Of a stretch of 64,000 nucleotides of DNA, positions 21,708 through 62,763 are shown piece after piece. Source of the stretch: a virus; IMG/VR virus record IMGVR_UViG_3300022939_001737, positions 22,001 to 86,000 of that record; one strand, given 5' to 3'. Position numbers and translations under genes: made by a program. The notes under the pieces are model-generated. The model was not told where the DNA came from and ran no database searches. It saw only the letters and a program-made list of their open reading frames with translations. Within the stretch, counting starts at the first letter, position 1, and every line of letters starts with the position of its first letter.

Positions 21708-23119
21708 TGCAACACTTTTATGACGGACAAGTAAGAAGATATCTTACACAAATGATGCGCATACTTAGTAATTTTCCTATCAAAGAAGGCGATGGAAGAA
21801 CCAAAGAAGTGCCCGTTACGTATGGAGATCTAACAAGACAAGTTGCAAATATAATTCGAGAAAATTCTGAAAATAAATTGCCTAGTGCACCTCGTATCGC
21901 TGTGTATCTAACAGGCTTAGAATTAGATAAAGACAGGCTTACGGATGCAACATATACACGTAAGACAAATATTAGAGAACGAGCATACGACGAAACAAAC
22001 GAAGAATATCTAAATTATCAAGGTAAAAACTATACAGTCGAAAGGCTAATACCAACACCTTATATGATGCGTGTTAATGCAGATATATGGACAACTAATA
22101 CAGATCAAAAATTACAAATATTAGAACAAATACTCGTACTTTTTAATCCTAGTTTAGAAATGCAAACTACAGATAACTTCATAGACTGGACAAGTATTAC
22201 TGTTGTAAATCTTGAAAATGTACAATGGTCTAATCGCAGTGTTCCTGTAGGTGTTGATTCGGAAATAGATATTGCTACACTTACTTTTAGTGTGCCAATT
22301 TACATTAGTCCTCCTACCAAAGTTCGCAAAATGGGTGTTATTACTAACATTATAACTAGTATGTTTGATGAAGAAAGAGGAACAATAGAAGACGGCATTA
22401 CTGTGCCTGAATTAAATCAATACGACGATTTTGCAAATTCTGGTATTACAACAAACGAATTTGGAAGCAAATCAGAAACTGACCTTGCACAAAACACAGC
22501 AAATGTAAATTACAACAAGTACGGCGTTTATTTAGATACAGACACTGCCCAGCTTTATTCAAATGGCATAGTAGGTAACAGAGGATGGCGCGAAGTATTT
22601 GAAGCATTGCCAGGCACTTATGCAGCAGATATAAGTAGAATATATCTAACTAATCTTGATAGTGATGCAACTGTTACAGGCACTTTTACCCTTAGTCCAT
22701 TTGATGAGGGTAAAATATTAATTAACTGGGACACTGACAGTTTTCCTAGTGACACAATCATACAAGGTAGAACAAGTATAGATTATATCATAAATCCTGT
22801 GAGTTTTAATCCGAGTGCTATCAAAGTTACAGGCTTAAGGCTATTATTACTTGAAGACTTGGGAGATCCTAATGCAGTAAACGTTCCTGCAGCCTGGCAA
22901 AATACAGATGGCACAGGACTGGTTGCTAAGGCTAACGATATTATAGAATGGGACGGTTCTAAATGGAACATTGTATTTGATGCAAGTGAAACTACAGCAA
23001 TTACTTACACAACAAATTTGAATACAAGTGTACAATATAGATTCAAAAACGGAGAATGGTTTAAATCTATAGACGGTGATTATCCAGTTGGATCCTGGAG
23101 GATTGAGCTTGCAGGATAA
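21707..23119 (+). CDS. gp15: Tail completion / sheath stabiliser gp15
   Basis: A 470-residue protein whose first 240 residues match gp15, the terminator that caps the tail tube and sheath: MQHFYDGQVRRYLTQMMRILSNFPIKEG, YTVERLIPTPYMMRVNADIW and EQILVLFNPSLEMQTTDNFIDWTSITVV. T4 gp15 has 272 residues. The C-terminal addition of about 220 residues includes a DIIEWDGSKWNIVF module like those of gp14 and gp18. Translation is coupled to gp14. No terminator follows, so the Nudix and heptose genes downstream can be reached by read-through late in infection. Confidence 0.83.
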   Translation: MQHFYDGQVRRYLTQMMRILSNFPIKEGDGRTKEVPVTYGDLTRQVANIIRENSENKLPSAPRIAVYLTGLELDKDRLTDATYTRKTNIRERAYDETNEEYLNYQGKNYTVERLIPTPYMMRVNADIWTTNTDQKLQILEQILVLFNPSLEMQTTDNFIDWTSITVVNLENVQWSNRSVPVGVDSEIDIATLTFSVPIYISPPTKVRKMGVITNIITSMFDEERGTIEDGITVPELNQYDDFANSGITTNEFGSKSETDLAQNTANVNYNKYGVYLDTDTAQLYSNGIVGNRGWREVFEALPGTYAADISRIYLTNLDSDATVTGTFTLSPFDEGKILINWDTDSFPSDTIIQGRTSIDYIINPVSFNPSAIKVTGLRLLLLEDLGDPNAVNVPAAWQNTDGTGLVAKANDIIEWDGSKWNIVFDASETTAITYTTNLNTSVQYRFKNGEWFKSIDGDYPVGSWRIELAG

Positions 23120-23127
23120 TTAATTAT

Positions 23128-23568
23128 ATGACTGACCATATAATTTGCAGCGGCGCACTTTTTTATACATTAAAAACCAATAGATTTTTATTCTTACATA
23201 GAGCAAACGGCAAGCGTAGTAATATGTGGGGGCTAGTTGGTGGACAAAACGAACTGTCTGAAACTCCGTTCGAAGGCTTGAAAAGAGAAATAGAAGAAGA
23301 AATTGGATTTTTGCCCGATATAAAGAAGACATTACCGTTAGAAAGTTTTATTTCATCTGATAATAAATTTTACTTTCACACTTATTTGTGTGTAATAAAG
23401 GAAGAATTTATCCCCCAACTTAATAATGAACACAACGGTTACGCCTGGTGCAGTTTTACAAAATGGCCTAAGCCTTTACATCACGGTCTACGTAATACTC
23501 TTCAAAGTAAAGTCAATCTACGTAAATTAGACACAGTATTCCAAACTATTAATTTACTTGACACATAA
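23128..23568 (+). CDS. Nudix hydrolase
   Basis: A 146-residue Nudix hydrolase. The Nudix box is complete at residues 39-61: G39, E45, then REIEEEIGF from 53. The region before it (LFLHRANGKRSNMWGLVGG) is like GDP-mannose mannosyl hydrolases and NTP pyrophosphatases. It lies nine bases after gp15 and ahead of the heptose genes, so it may act on a nucleotide-sugar, perhaps to adjust pools. The substrate is not determinable. The promoter of hldE overlaps its last codons. Confidence 0.85.
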   Translation: MTDHIICSGALFYTLKTNRFLFLHRANGKRSNMWGLVGGQNELSETPFEGLKREIEEEIGFLPDIKKTLPLESFISSDNKFYFHTYLCVIKEEFIPQLNNEHNGYAWCSFTKWPKPLHHGLRNTLQSKVNLRKLDTVFQTINLLDT

Positions 23569-23586
23569 CAAAAAATAAAGTATAAT
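23558..23586 (+). promoter_or_regulatory. Consensus sigma70 promoter for the heptose operon
   Basis: TTGACA (23558-23563), a 17-base spacer and TATAAT (23581-23586) give a perfect sigma70 consensus. The hldE ATG begins five bases after the -10 box, so the transcript is expected to start on or beside it. The -35 box overlaps the end of the Nudix gene. Confidence 0.9.
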
Positions 23587-23591
23587 AAAGT

Positions 23592-24731
23592 ATGAAAGTC
23601 CTAGTTATTGGCGATATAATCATTGACAAATATATCTACGGAAGCAGCACACGTTTGAGTCCGGAGGCTCCTGTTCCTGTGGTTACACAAGAACATATTG
23701 TAGAAACTATAGGTGGCGCAGGATTAGTTTATAAAAATTTAGAAAGTCTAGGTGTTGATGTTACACTTTACGATTATGATCAGCCTAAAAGTGTTAAGAC
23801 TCGTGTAATGTGTGATGGACATTATGTTACACGTATAGATAACGATTATGATGTAAATGGTGCTGAAATACTAAACGATATTCTTAATAAGGATTTTCAA
23901 TGGTATGATTATGTAATATTAAGTGATTATGACAAGGGAGTGTTAGACGAATCTAAACGTATTATTGAACACATTAATAAATTTGGTTGTAAGATAATTG
24001 TAGATCCAAAAACACACGCGACTCATTATGAAGGTGCTTGGTTGGTAAAACCTAATAGTTCTGAATTTGAAAGGTTAGGCTTTACAAAGTGGCTTGGTAA
24101 TATTATAACAACAAATGCATCAAATCCTGTAATAGCAGAAATTGACAAAGAATATTATACTATACCGGTAGACCCCGTAGAAGTAAGTGATGTCACAGGT
24201 GCAGGGGATTGTTTCCTAGCAGCATTTGTTTATGCGTTAACCAGAGGGTATAATCATAGAACTTGTTTAGAACTTGCTGTTAAAGGATCTACAGAAAGTG
24301 TGAAACATAGTGGTACATATATTCTAAAACAAAATGATTTGGAAGAACGTATAATTTTCACAAATGGTGTATTTGATATACTCCACAAAGGACATTTTGA
24401 ATTACTAAACGAAGCACGTAATTTAGGAAATCGTCTAATTGTAGGCATTAATTCAGATGCTAGTGTAAAACGACTAAAGGGCGAGACTAGACCCATTAAT
24501 AATGTGACTAAACGCATAGCACAATTAGAAATGTTACCGTGGGTAGATGAAGTTGTTGTATTTGACGATGATACTCCATATGAATTAATTAAACAAATAA
24601 AACCGCATCTAATCGTAAAGGGCGGTGATTATAAAATAGAAGAAGTTGTAGGTAATGATTTAGCAGATGTACACATAGTTTCAACTGTTGATGGTTATTC
24701 TACAACTAGCATAATAGAGGCAGCACTATGA
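23592..24731 (+). CDS. hldE: HldE-like bifunctional heptose-7-phosphate kinase / heptose-1-phosphate adenylyltransferase
   Basis: A 379-residue two-domain enzyme of ADP-heptose synthesis. The N-terminal ribokinase-type domain has GDIIIDKYIYGSSTRLSPEAPVPV and the anion-hole motif DVTGAGDCF at about residues 200-208. The C-terminal nucleotidyltransferase domain has FTNGVFDILHKGH (about 255-267, the HxGH motif) and VKGGDY. It would phosphorylate D-glycero-D-manno-heptose 7-phosphate at C1 and later adenylylate the 1-phosphate. E. coli HldE has 477 residues; the kinase domain is shortened here but both active sites are present. The ATG is at the predicted transcript start and has no Shine-Dalgarno. 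Confidence 0.9.
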   Translation: MKVLVIGDIIIDKYIYGSSTRLSPEAPVPVVTQEHIVETIGGAGLVYKNLESLGVDVTLYDYDQPKSVKTRVMCDGHYVTRIDNDYDVNGAEILNDILNKDFQWYDYVILSDYDKGVLDESKRIIEHINKFGCKIIVDPKTHATHYEGAWLVKPNSSEFERLGFTKWLGNIITTNASNPVIAEIDKEYYTIPVDPVEVSDVTGAGDCFLAAFVYALTRGYNHRTCLELAVKGSTESVKHSGTYILKQNDLEERIIFTNGVFDILHKGHFELLNEARNLGNRLIVGINSDASVKRLKGETRPINNVTKRIAQLEMLPWVDEVVVFDDDTPYELIKQIKPHLIVKGGDYKIEEVVGNDLADVHIVSTVDGYSTTSIIEAAL

Positions 24732-34063: not shown

Positions 34064-34071
34064 GTATTTAT
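34064..34071 (-). promoter_or_regulatory. Late promoter for the 139-residue gene
   Basis: The minus strand reads ATAAATAC at the end of the carbamoyltransferase gene, about 23 bases before the ATG at 34040, with AAGGTA as a weak Shine-Dalgarno. Confidence 0.65.
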
Positions 34072-35864
34072 CAGTTTTTTACAGTTATTAATTTTCCGTA
34101 TTCGGGCAAGTAAAGATATTCTATTCTACTATTAACTAAAGTACGTACAGCATCATCTAGAGTTTCCACTAAAGGTTCGCCGCCTAAATTGAAACTAGTA
34201 TTGAAAATAATTGGACAACCTGTGCGTTCTTTAAATGCTTTAATTATATTGTAATAGTTTTCATTCTGTTCTTTATTCACTGTTTGTATGCGACAAGTTC
34301 CGTCTACGTGAATAATAGCAGGTATTTTTTCTTCAACACCGGGTTGACAATTTACAGCATACATCATTGTAGGCGACGACTTCATACCGCGTAGATCAAA
34401 CCATTCGTGTGCATCTTCTTCTAGAATTGATCCTGCAAACGGACGAAAGTACTCTCGACGTTTGACTTCGTTTACAAAATCCTTACCATTAGGATCTGTT
34501 GGATCATACATAATACTTCTGTTACCTAAAGCTCTTGGACCATTTTCACTTTTACCTTGAAACAGTGTAACGATATTTCTATCAACCATTAAGTTAATTA
34601 TATCGTCTTGTGAGGCATCAACTATACCGGCATTATACTTTTTCACAACACTTTCGATTTCAGAATCGGTATAGCAGTATGCCGGACCGTAGTAAACTGT
34701 TTCTGCTTGTGGTTTAACTGTAGTATCACCGGTAGTATTGTGATGCCAAAGTAAAGCTGCACCCATTGCTGTGCCTGCATCATTAGAAACAGGCTCTACA
34801 TAAATTTCAATTCCTTCGTCTTTTAATTCGTTAAGGTAATAATAATTTGCTACACAATTTAATCCATAGCCGCCACTTATAACAACTTTTTTACAATCAC
34901 TTAGTTCAACAGCGTGTCTAATTAAATCTGCTACTGCTTTTTGTGATTCTGTTTGTACAGCATACGCCATATCTCTTCTATTATCTAAAGTGGTTATGTC
35001 ATCTGCTTCATAGTTTTGTAAGTACTTGTACATATTTGCATTTACAACAGCACCGTTAGGATATCTTGGTAGTATTAAATTTCTATTTGTTGTAGGAACT
35101 ATACAATCATTATCTTCTATAATTTCAGGAAATTCGTCATTAGGTTTTCCGTAAGGAAATAGTCCCATAGTTTTACCTGCTTCAATACTGCTCCAACCAC
35201 AATATTCTGTTACTGCTTCATATGCTTTTACAATACCTGCTTTGTCTGATAAGGACAAATTAAATTTTGCGTCTGGTTCCCAATCTCCGCCACTAAAATC
35301 CGGAAGATAAACATTAACCAACATATTTCTTGCACCCATTGTTTTGTGCAGTGTTTCGATATTAGCAGGATATGTGCATTTGTAGATACTTTCAGTTTCA
35401 TATACAGTCATACTTTCGTCTCCTATTGTAAGAGGAAAGAAAGTTCCTGCTCCATCAACAATTACTGCAACTGCTTCTTCAAAACCACTATTATAAAAAG
35501 CAAGTCCAGCGTGTAACTTATGATGGAACATTGCCATATCAATCACTTGCGGGTGACCGTCATCCGAATGAGGTAAATCTTCGATTAAACCTATTTTTCT
35601 AGCAAGCCCGGTGTAAATATCTTCACCGGTATAATCAAGTTGTCCCGCACCATTAAGTGGTGTAGTATGTGCAACAACCAAATAATCAATTTTATCTGTA
35701 TACTCTTTAATTGCAAGAATAGATGCTAGAGGTCCACCGTCGTACTTTTTTCTTGTAAGTCTTTCTTCTTCTATACTAAAAACTATCTCGCCATCTTTTA
35801 GAAGACAAACTCCTGCGTTATGTCCTCTTGCAATGCCTGCTATCCAAACTGGACTATTTTCCAT
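34071..35864 (-). CDS. Carbamoyltransferase (NodU/CmcH/TobZ family)
   Basis: A 597-residue O-carbamoyltransferase, which uses carbamoyl phosphate and ATP to carbamoylate a hydroxyl, often on a sugar. The Kae1-like domain carries GHNAGVCLLKDGEIVFSIEEERLTRKK and the metal-binding FHHKLHAG (about 111-118). The YrdC-like C-terminal domain has GPRALGNRS (about 440-448), FRPFAGSIL and PIIFNTSFN. The length is normal for the family, so the enzyme is probably active. It sits two bases from the SGNH-like gene, in a three-gene surface-modification cassette with the GT9 enzyme. Confidence 0.92.
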   Translation of the reverse strand: MENSPVWIAGIARGHNAGVCLLKDGEIVFSIEEERLTRKKYDGGPLASILAIKEYTDKIDYLVVAHTTPLNGAGQLDYTGEDIYTGLARKIGLIEDLPHSDDGHPQVIDMAMFHHKLHAGLAFYNSGFEEAVAVIVDGAGTFFPLTIGDESMTVYETESIYKCTYPANIETLHKTMGARNMLVNVYLPDFSGGDWEPDAKFNLSLSDKAGIVKAYEAVTEYCGWSSIEAGKTMGLFPYGKPNDEFPEIIEDNDCIVPTTNRNLILPRYPNGAVVNANMYKYLQNYEADDITTLDNRRDMAYAVQTESQKAVADLIRHAVELSDCKKVVISGGYGLNCVANYYYLNELKDEGIEIYVEPVSNDAGTAMGAALLWHHNTTGDTTVKPQAETVYYGPAYCYTDSEIESVVKKYNAGIVDASQDDIINLMVDRNIVTLFQGKSENGPRALGNRSIMYDPTDPNGKDFVNEVKRREYFRPFAGSILEEDAHEWFDLRGMKSSPTMMYAVNCQPGVEEKIPAIIHVDGTCRIQTVNKEQNENYYNIIKAFKERTGCPIIFNTSFNLGGEPLVETLDDAVRTLVNSRIEYLYLPEYGKLITVKN

Positions 35865-61372: not shown

Positions 61373-61813
61373 TTAGCCGTCGCCTTCAGTATCGTCAGCA
61401 CCTGTTAGTACGTCATCATCTGTACCTAGTGTTGCGTCAGCACCTGCGCCTACACCTGTACCAGCTTCTTCAACTGCTACTGTATCGCCTGTACCTGTAA
61501 AGTCCCAAGTAGTAACAGAACCGTTGTCCATTGTTACTTTGCGTCCTGAAATTTTAGTAACTTGACGTGCTGTTCCGCCGTCGTCAACAACAATTGACAT
61601 TTCACCTTCTAGCAAATCAGCCGATGCTTTATCAACTAATGTGCATAGGCCTGTATCTGTGCCGCCTGCATTTGAAACATTAAAACGCTTTGAACCTTTT
61701 TGATTTACAATGTAGCCCGGTGTAGAACCGTTGCCTGCATTAAATTGAACTTTAATTTCGTTGCCACCTGCTGTAGGTGCTCCGAAGTATCTTTTGTTAA
61801 GTGGTCTTCCCAT
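61373..61813 (-). CDS. Small virion structural protein
   Basis: A 146-residue protein, MGRPLNKRYFGAPTAGGNEIKVQFNAGNG, with QVTKISGRKVTMDNGSVTTWDF, a sequence conserved in marine T4-like phages near the capsid gene. The C terminus is Asp/Gly-rich (GAGADATLGTDDDVLTGADD). The start at 61813 has AGGAGA upstream; a longer frame to 61939 runs through its promoter and leader. It may be a head-associated or fibre-base protein. Confidence 0.65.
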   Translation of the reverse strand: MGRPLNKRYFGAPTAGGNEIKVQFNAGNGSTPGYIVNQKGSKRFNVSNAGGTDTGLCTLVDKASADLLEGEMSIVVDDGGTARQVTKISGRKVTMDNGSVTTWDFTGTGDTVAVEEAGTGVGAGADATLGTDDDVLTGADDTEGDG

Positions 61814-61914
61814 TTGTTTTCTCCTATTTAGAAGTCCGATGCGGGTTCTATCCGCTACGCTGTTGGGACAGCATAAGTCCGCCTTGCGGCACACTATCTG
61901 ACACAAGTATTTAT
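61814..61914 (-). promoter_or_regulatory. Late promoter and hairpin-rich leader of the 146-residue gene
   Basis: The minus strand has ATAAATAC at 61914-61907 and a leader of about 85 bases. It contains GCC-GCAA-GGC (GNRA loop), GCTGT-CCCA-ACAGC, and GCGG...CCGC stems, then AGGAGA before the ATG. This is a second structured late leader, like that at 56414-56547. Confidence 0.6.
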
Positions 61915-61923
61915 CAAATAAAG

Positions 61924-61956
61924 AAAAAGCCCGACACACTAATGCATCGGGCTTTT
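61924..61956 (-). terminator. Terminator of the candidate ncRNA
   Basis: On the minus strand AGCCCGA pairs with TCGGGCT around a 12-base loop, followed by TTTTCTT; flanking A and T runs extend the stem. It separates the RNA unit from the late promoter of the 146-residue gene. Confidence 0.85.
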
Positions 61957-62168
61957 ATTAAAGGGTGGGTGAAGGACTTGGGTTTACCTCCAACTAAGCG
62001 CCTAGATACCTGTCTATGTTACGCCTAGAACCTCAGTTCTGCTTAGTATCGCAGTGTGCGTACTGCTTGTCTCCAAACTCTACGCCGGGCACTACCCCTA
62101 ACCAAGTGCGCTTATCTCCTCTAGATCGGAAATTATTAGCGCCAACCCGTATAACAACGTCTTGTTAT
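61924..62168 (-). ncRNA. Candidate structured non-coding RNA
   Basis: A transcription unit of about 245 bases with no convincing reading frame, between a sigma70-like promoter (62202-62175) and a rho-independent terminator (61956-61924). It is much GC-richer than its surroundings. Hairpins on the minus strand are GCGCT...AGCGC enclosing ATTTCC/GGAGAT (62142-62108), GCAGT/ACTGC (62066-62051) and AGAAC-TGAG-GTTCT (62040-62027). An outer 7-bp stem ACTAAGC/GCTTAGT (62047-62041 with 61999-61993) closes a multi-branch. I find no T-arm consensus, acceptor stem or other known RNA signature, so it is not an obvious tRNA or tmRNA. Function unknown. Confidence 0.6.
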
Positions 62169-62174
62169 ATTATT

Positions 62175-62202
62175 AATATAACATCATTAAAACAAATGTC
62201 AA
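62175..62202 (-). promoter_or_regulatory. Sigma70-like promoter of the candidate ncRNA, with a palindrome over the -10
   Basis: The minus strand has TTGACA (62202-62197), a 16-base spacer and TATATT (62180-62175). A perfect 9-1-9 palindrome, GTTATATTA-A-TAATATAAC (62182-62164), covers the -10 box and likely start site, where a repressor could bind. Confidence 0.75.
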
Positions 62203-62220: not shown

Positions 62221-62763
62221 TTAAATTTTTCTTCTTCTAATATCTAATGCCCGACTTGCACGATACATTTCTATACTTACTTTGTTTGATTGATTGCCTC
62301 CTAGTATCAAATAATATTTTATATTATCTTTTACATATGTTTGCAAATAAAATCCTACGTGACCTTGCCAGCCTTTATCGCCTCTTGGAAATACAACCAA
62401 ATCTCCTGGTTGAATATCTTCTTCGGATACTTTGTCACCCCAAGTTAAAAAGGAACGTGCCATTAGAGGTACATCACTAATACTTTCACTTCCGGGTATT
62501 CCGCTTTCGTGCAGTACACTATTAACAAAAGCTGCACACCATTCTGTACGTACAGGATCAACACCTGTATAGCTGCGTAGTTCTTGTCTGTCTGTACTTT
62601 CGTGAAGTCCGTAATAGTTATAAGCAGTAAGTGCAGGATTGTCTGCACTTATTTGTATAGGAACTTCTCCTCTAACAGCAGGTATTGGAACTGATTGTAC
62701 ACATCCTGTAAAAACAAATAATCCTATAAAAATTAATATGTAGTGTTTCATAAAATCTTTCAT
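62221..62763 (-). CDS. Lipoprotein-type cysteine peptidase/amidase, candidate lysis protein
   Basis: A 180-residue protein with an N-terminal KHYILIFIGLFVFTGC segment, a positively charged start, a hydrophobic core and a lipobox-like Cys21, so it is probably exported and lipid-anchored. The catalytic domain resembles NlpC/P60 or CHAP-type hydrolases of the TIGR02594 kind. TEWCAAFVNSVLHESG holds the nucleophile Cys76, GWQGHVGFY holds His135, and ILGGNQSNKVS follows. It likely cuts peptidoglycan. It lies behind the gp23 terminator. An alternative start is the fifth codon. No holin is visible beside it. Confidence 0.78.
   Translation of the reverse strand: MKDFMKHYILIFIGLFVFTGCVQSVPIPAVRGEVPIQISADNPALTAYNYYGLHESTDRQELRSYTGVDPVRTEWCAAFVNSVLHESGIPGSESISDVPLMARSFLTWGDKVSEEDIQPGDLVVFPRGDKGWQGHVGFYLQTYVKDNIKYYLILGGNQSNKVSIEMYRASRALDIRRRKI

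Follow-up and report, generated by a model that had tools for sequence, protein, structure and literature searches.

A manA-family RNA in a marine T4-superfamily phage has the predicted layout of a stand-alone small-RNA gene

Introduction

For the manA motif (RF01745), a location in 5' untranslated regions (UTRs) and a possible function as a riboswitch were proposed by Weinberg et al. in 2010 (PMC2864571). Rfam files the family under the type Cis-reg, and later phage papers restate it as "cis-regulatory" (PMC9964418, PMC12197685, PMC10665884), among them a review that classes the manA RNA of cyanophage S-CREM1 as cis-acting (PMC12197685). In the open-access main texts on manA in phages, we found neither a functional test nor a lineage in which the RNA forms a separate transcript.

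Here we analyze a manA element on the minus strand of a 64,000-nucleotide stretch of viral DNA (hereafter the window), which covers positions 22,001 to 86,000 of the 86-kb record IMGVR_UViG_3300022939_001737. The element resembles the described motif in its full-length model match, in its multi-branched fold with a closing helix, and in being carried by a T4-like marine phage. Unlike the manA RNAs filed as cis-regulatory 5' UTRs, the window copy is separated from the next gene by a predicted terminator and a predicted late promoter, so that it probably does not occupy the position of a gene's 5' UTR, although some read-through may occur. With its own predicted promoter and terminator and no open frame, it is similar to the stand-alone phage small RNAs described in the same review (PMC12197685), from which it differs in lacking a known target or antisense overlap.

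Family identity and genomic setting

The features of the locus are listed below in the direction of transcription; promoters and terminators, here and throughout, were called as consensus matches.

62221 to 62763, minus strand: upstream gene, lying between manA and the capsid gene, for a CHAP/NlpC-P60-like endolysin or tail lysozyme; it stops 18 nt ahead of the -35 box
62175 to 62202, minus strand: sigma70-type promoter, 11/12 in the consensus scan
61961 to 62167, minus strand: manA RNA (RF01745), full length; cmscan 79.3 bits, cut-off 55.2, E value 1.6e-18
61925 to 61956, minus strand: intrinsic terminator hairpin of 14 pairs, with a U-rich tail to about 61915
61908 to 61915, minus strand: T4-type late promoter octamer GATAAATA, assigned to the next gene
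61811 to 61893, minus strand: freshwater-2 RNA (RF02980); cmscan 73.9 bits, cut-off 49.9
61373 to 61813, minus strand: next gene (neighbor), encoding a 146-aa protein, with the ATG at 61813 placed from the freshwater-2 alignment

The match spans model positions 1 to 192 of 192 and has the architecture of manA, namely a 5' hairpin, a multi-branched core, and a long-range closing helix of 4 to 5 bp, and we assign the window element to this known RNA family on sequence grounds. It is the single manA copy in the whole 86-kb record. An earlier note on this DNA had called the element undescribed and of no recognizable RNA type; since the Rfam match lies well above the curated cut-off, this description was wrong, and a hit to a known family is what the note itself had named as evidence against it. 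Its suggestion of a divergent tRNA-like element was likewise not borne out, with ARAGORN finding 0 tRNA or tmRNA genes in the window and Rfam naming another family. That the RNA represents a new, undescribed class has nothing in its favor beyond the fold itself, and we regard this as extremely improbable: the full-length match exceeds the cut-off in the window as well as in 10 of the 20 relative loci scanned (55.5 to 88.2 bits, the four lowest at most 4 bits above it), no tRNA was found, and the same family is present in the named cyanophages P-SSM2, P-SSM4, P-SSM7, and S-SSM7 at 124 to 184 bits, against 79 for the window copy. Pelagibacter phage Mosig carries a manA at 64 bits and was the only hit when named phages were searched for similarity to the relatives' manA, while scans of S-SM2, S-ShM2, Syn9, Phosso, and Vibrio phage 2.275.O gave no match. 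As for cellular copies, 6 of 34 genome contigs holding a 16-nt pattern gave manA profile matches. Four of the six have phage-type genes next to them or an uncertain context, and one is cut at the contig end; among these 34 contigs no firm cellular copy was established, the match in Shewanella sp. TC10 being weak (21.8 bits). What looks less expected than the family assignment is the predicted stand-alone variant in the window's lineage.

Judging from its genes, the source is a marine T4-superfamily phage. T4-type capsid and tail-sheath genes are present in the window, and the best matches of the capsid protein among isolates are T4-superfamily jumbo phages (72% identity to Sinorhizobium phage Phosso); at the DNA level, the locus showed no similarity to named phages. 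The N terminus of the upstream gene's product resembles a lipoprotein signal (GLFVFTGC) when judged by eye. The 146-aa protein of the next gene had no Pfam hit, and a longer, 188-aa version of its open reading frame (ORF) had no PHROG hit; we rejected this version as an over-extension whose start falls inside the terminator. The freshwater-2 element, which the earlier note did not contain, is a short leader of this next gene that covers its ribosome-binding site and ATG. It lies outside the predicted manA transcript, with the terminator and the late promoter between the two RNAs, and is found beside or near manA in many relatives.

Promoter, fold, and terminator of the window copy

The predicted promoter consists of a -35 box TTGACA (62202 to 62197), a 16-nt spacer, and a -10 box TATATT (62180 to 62175) preceded by TG, from whose position the start of the manA transcript is expected near 62168. 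It is the top match within its 2.5-kb neighborhood and one of eight sites in the window with at least 11 matches. Elsewhere in the window, a perfect sigma70 promoter (TTGACA-17-TATAAT, 12/12) is located at 23558 to 23586 on the plus strand, just ahead of a plus-strand ORF at 23592. At the other end of the RNA, the terminator begins 5 nt past the manA 3' end.

When folded, the minus strand of 61924 to 62202 reached -92.4 kcal/mol, compared with -70.4 +/- 4.7 for shuffled sequences (z = -4.7, 0/200), and the plus strand folded less well relative to its shuffles (z = -1.9). Even without the terminator, the stretch from 61961 to 62167 was more stable than shuffles (z = -2.4, 3/200). The predicted minus-strand fold contains the terminator together with the manA closing helix (GGGU/ACCC), which has 4 bp in this fold and 5 bp in the Rfam model. 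A coding gene was ruled out, as the six frames average 2.8 to 4.9 stops across the RNA in 101 relatives and the alignment of relatives contains gaps whose lengths are not divisible by three. The sigma70-like promoter, the structured RNA of about 245 nt, the strong terminator, and the lack of a credible coding frame, all of which the earlier note had read from the sequence, were thus recovered. Its account of the stems held in part: the long perfect stem exists as the 5'-terminal hairpin AUAACAA-GACG-UUGUUAU, whereas the outer closing stem of 7 bp that it described is, in its supported form, the 4- to 5-bp GGGU/ACCC helix.

Covariation

Covariation was assessed in an alignment (A1) of 37 distinct sequences. 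RNAalifold predicted 31 pairs, 22 of which showed at least one double change. For the Rfam structure, the covariation score was 0.323, compared with 0.153 +/- 0.007 after shuffling and at most 0.160 with the partners slid, the latter control being somewhat favorable because a single member, the window, supplied the mapped structure. The closing helix aligns poorly between two sub-lineages and was therefore tested directly by comparing cognate with permuted arms: cognate arms formed 4.52 bp on average and permuted arms 3.91, and 0 of 2000 permutations reached the cognate value. The same held inside one sub-lineage (4.37 versus 4.01 bp, 0/2000). In these relatives, the consensus manA structure is thus supported by covariation, the check that had been proposed along with the original description of the stems.

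Conservation of the unit in the window's lineage

We gathered relatives of the locus by way of two genes (capsid and downstream), the freshwater-2 motif, and manA patterns; the copies are kin to each other and were sampled by similarity and neighborhood, so that the percentages below describe the sample. Within it, a sigma70 promoter (at least 9/12) is found at the manA 5' end in 92 of 97 testable lineage copies, against a background of 6%, and a terminator within 70 nt of the RNA 3' end in 77 of 101 distinct copies, against 1.5% at random places in the same contigs. An earlier count had given terminators in 39 of 40 sequences, and at least 3 of the 24 copies scored as lacking one have a terminator with a larger loop by eye (L144, L436, L473). 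The 77 terminator hairpins comprise 46 different sequences, which indicates that termination has been retained despite sequence change. Several relatives carry a different downstream gene and still keep the unit of promoter and terminator. Among isolates, no member of this lineage with a manA terminator was found; manA-carrying phages in culture include P-SSM2, P-SSM7, S-SSM7, and Mosig. The conservation of promoter, covarying fold, and terminator together agrees with the initial description of the element as a self-contained structured RNA gene. In loci L073, L188, L008, L141, L112, and L129, manA is preceded on its strand, at a distance of a few hundred bases, by a glutamine riboswitch aptamer (RF01739).

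Of 96 lineage copies, 71 have the late-promoter motif NATAAATA no more than 130 nt downstream of manA (background 4%). The window contains 19 T4-type late octamers; as 13 of them precede a gene start by 12 to 123 nt, the phage seems to employ T4-type late promoters. Given a late promoter of its own, the next gene probably belongs to a transcription program different from that of manA.

The cyanophage-type lineage and phage Mosig

A sister lineage of the cyanophage type, represented by 111 copies, keeps the promoter just as strictly (98 of 107 copies) but shows a different arrangement behind manA, with a terminator in 16 of 111 and a tRNA within 60 nt in 7. Here, manA frequently lies 10 to 40 nt ahead of the next ORF. 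The genes that follow, putatively identified by reading their sequences, include those for a gp32-like single-stranded DNA-binding protein, a transaldolase, a HAD phosphatase, and a mannose-6-phosphate-isomerase-like protein; others are purL in P-SSM2 and, directly behind manA, a carbamoyltransferase gene in P-SSM7. Across the family, the downstream genes are metabolically unrelated. A Nol-like carbamoyltransferase gene, like-named to the one in P-SSM7, is also present in the window at 34071 to 35864 on the minus strand. In Mosig, manA is located close ahead of a rubrerythrin gene, without a terminator. Together with the terminator-poor cyanophage type, this suggests that a leader function may be ancestral.

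In S-SSM7, the base immediately following the manA match is the first of a tRNA-Gly, and ARAGORN placed a tRNA (Gly or Asn) 2 to 16 nt past manA in loci L247 (S-SSM7), L333, L274, L285, L257, L300, and L338. With a tRNA so close behind manA, RNase P could free the RNA. In 38 of 95 testable cyanophage-type copies, the -35 box is located in or beside a terminator hairpin, which would stop upstream transcripts just before manA; by its sequence, this hairpin is a combined terminator and promoter. The -35 TTGACA can be found in the loop or in the stem of the terminator-like hairpin (e.g., GAGGGTTGACACCCTCTTTTTTT; loci such as L404, L246, and L260). In the window's lineage, a terminator hairpin around the -35 box was absent (0/36). 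What stays constant across the family is that manA is predicted to be the first part of a sigma70 transcript, while the sequence behind it varies.

Possible modes of action

With release predicted at the terminator and a late promoter of its own assigned to the next gene, trans action is the most likely mode for the window manA, and we consider it probable, though by a distance not certain, that manA in this phage is an autonomous small-RNA gene. In this scenario, the host sigma70 polymerase would initiate at the manA 5' hairpin, around position 62168; the RNA would fold into its multi-branched form, closed by the covarying long-range helix; and a constitutive terminator 5 nt later would end transcription, yielding an RNA of about 245 nt. 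The next gene would be expressed apart, from its own T4-type late promoter. We infer that the released RNA would act early in infection and in trans, via its folded core, with a protein of the host or phage, or else a small molecule, as its binding partner; a role as regulatory RNA is plausible. It is tempting to extend this idea to the whole family, although we do so tentatively and would not be surprised to see it fail: manA might primarily be a phage small RNA independent of the attached gene, with its own sigma70 start, released by the terminator in the window's lineage or perhaps by RNase P at the adjacent tRNA in some cyanophages, and the copies in gene leaders would be the same RNA at the 5' end of an mRNA.

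The main rival, owing to the cyanophage copies, is a general leader or stabilizing role, in which manA acts as a 5' leader on the stability or translation of any attached RNA and a leaky terminator lets some transcripts reach the next gene. Such a role would fit the cyanophage type, where predicted mRNAs of widely differing genes begin with manA, the position of manA close before rubrerythrin in Mosig, and the hairpin with which the RNA invariably begins at the start site. However, two features of the window's lineage, the conserved strong terminator directly behind manA and the late promoter from which the next gene would be transcribed, predict that few mRNAs contain manA, and we consider this reading rather unlikely for the window copy. 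Less likely than a general leader, and in our view improbable, is a transcription-attenuating riboswitch, in which ligand sensing by manA would decide whether the adjacent terminator forms and thereby control the gene behind. The order of promoter, folded RNA, terminator, and gene is the usual one for such switches, and manA was among the riboswitch candidates of Weinberg et al. (PMC2864571). Yet the 5' arms of the terminators showed no preference for pairing with their own manA, non-cognate arms being at least as good in 53% of cases and shuffled arms in 43%, so that no antiterminator switch was found, and the closing helix and the terminator coexist in the predicted fold. Taken together, these two observations argue for constitutive termination, although a switch of another kind may operate. 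The late promoter belonging to the next gene itself and the lack of a metabolic theme among the downstream genes across the family also speak against control of the gene behind manA.

Implications for the manA family

The manA motif is an orphan family that has been carried as a possible riboswitch since 2010 and as "cis-regulatory" in recent phage papers. If the lineage described here makes manA as a free RNA, with a promoter and a terminator dedicated to it, work on its function should seek a target in trans. A stand-alone manA RNA would, if true, also be a clean object for expression, deletion, and pull-down experiments.
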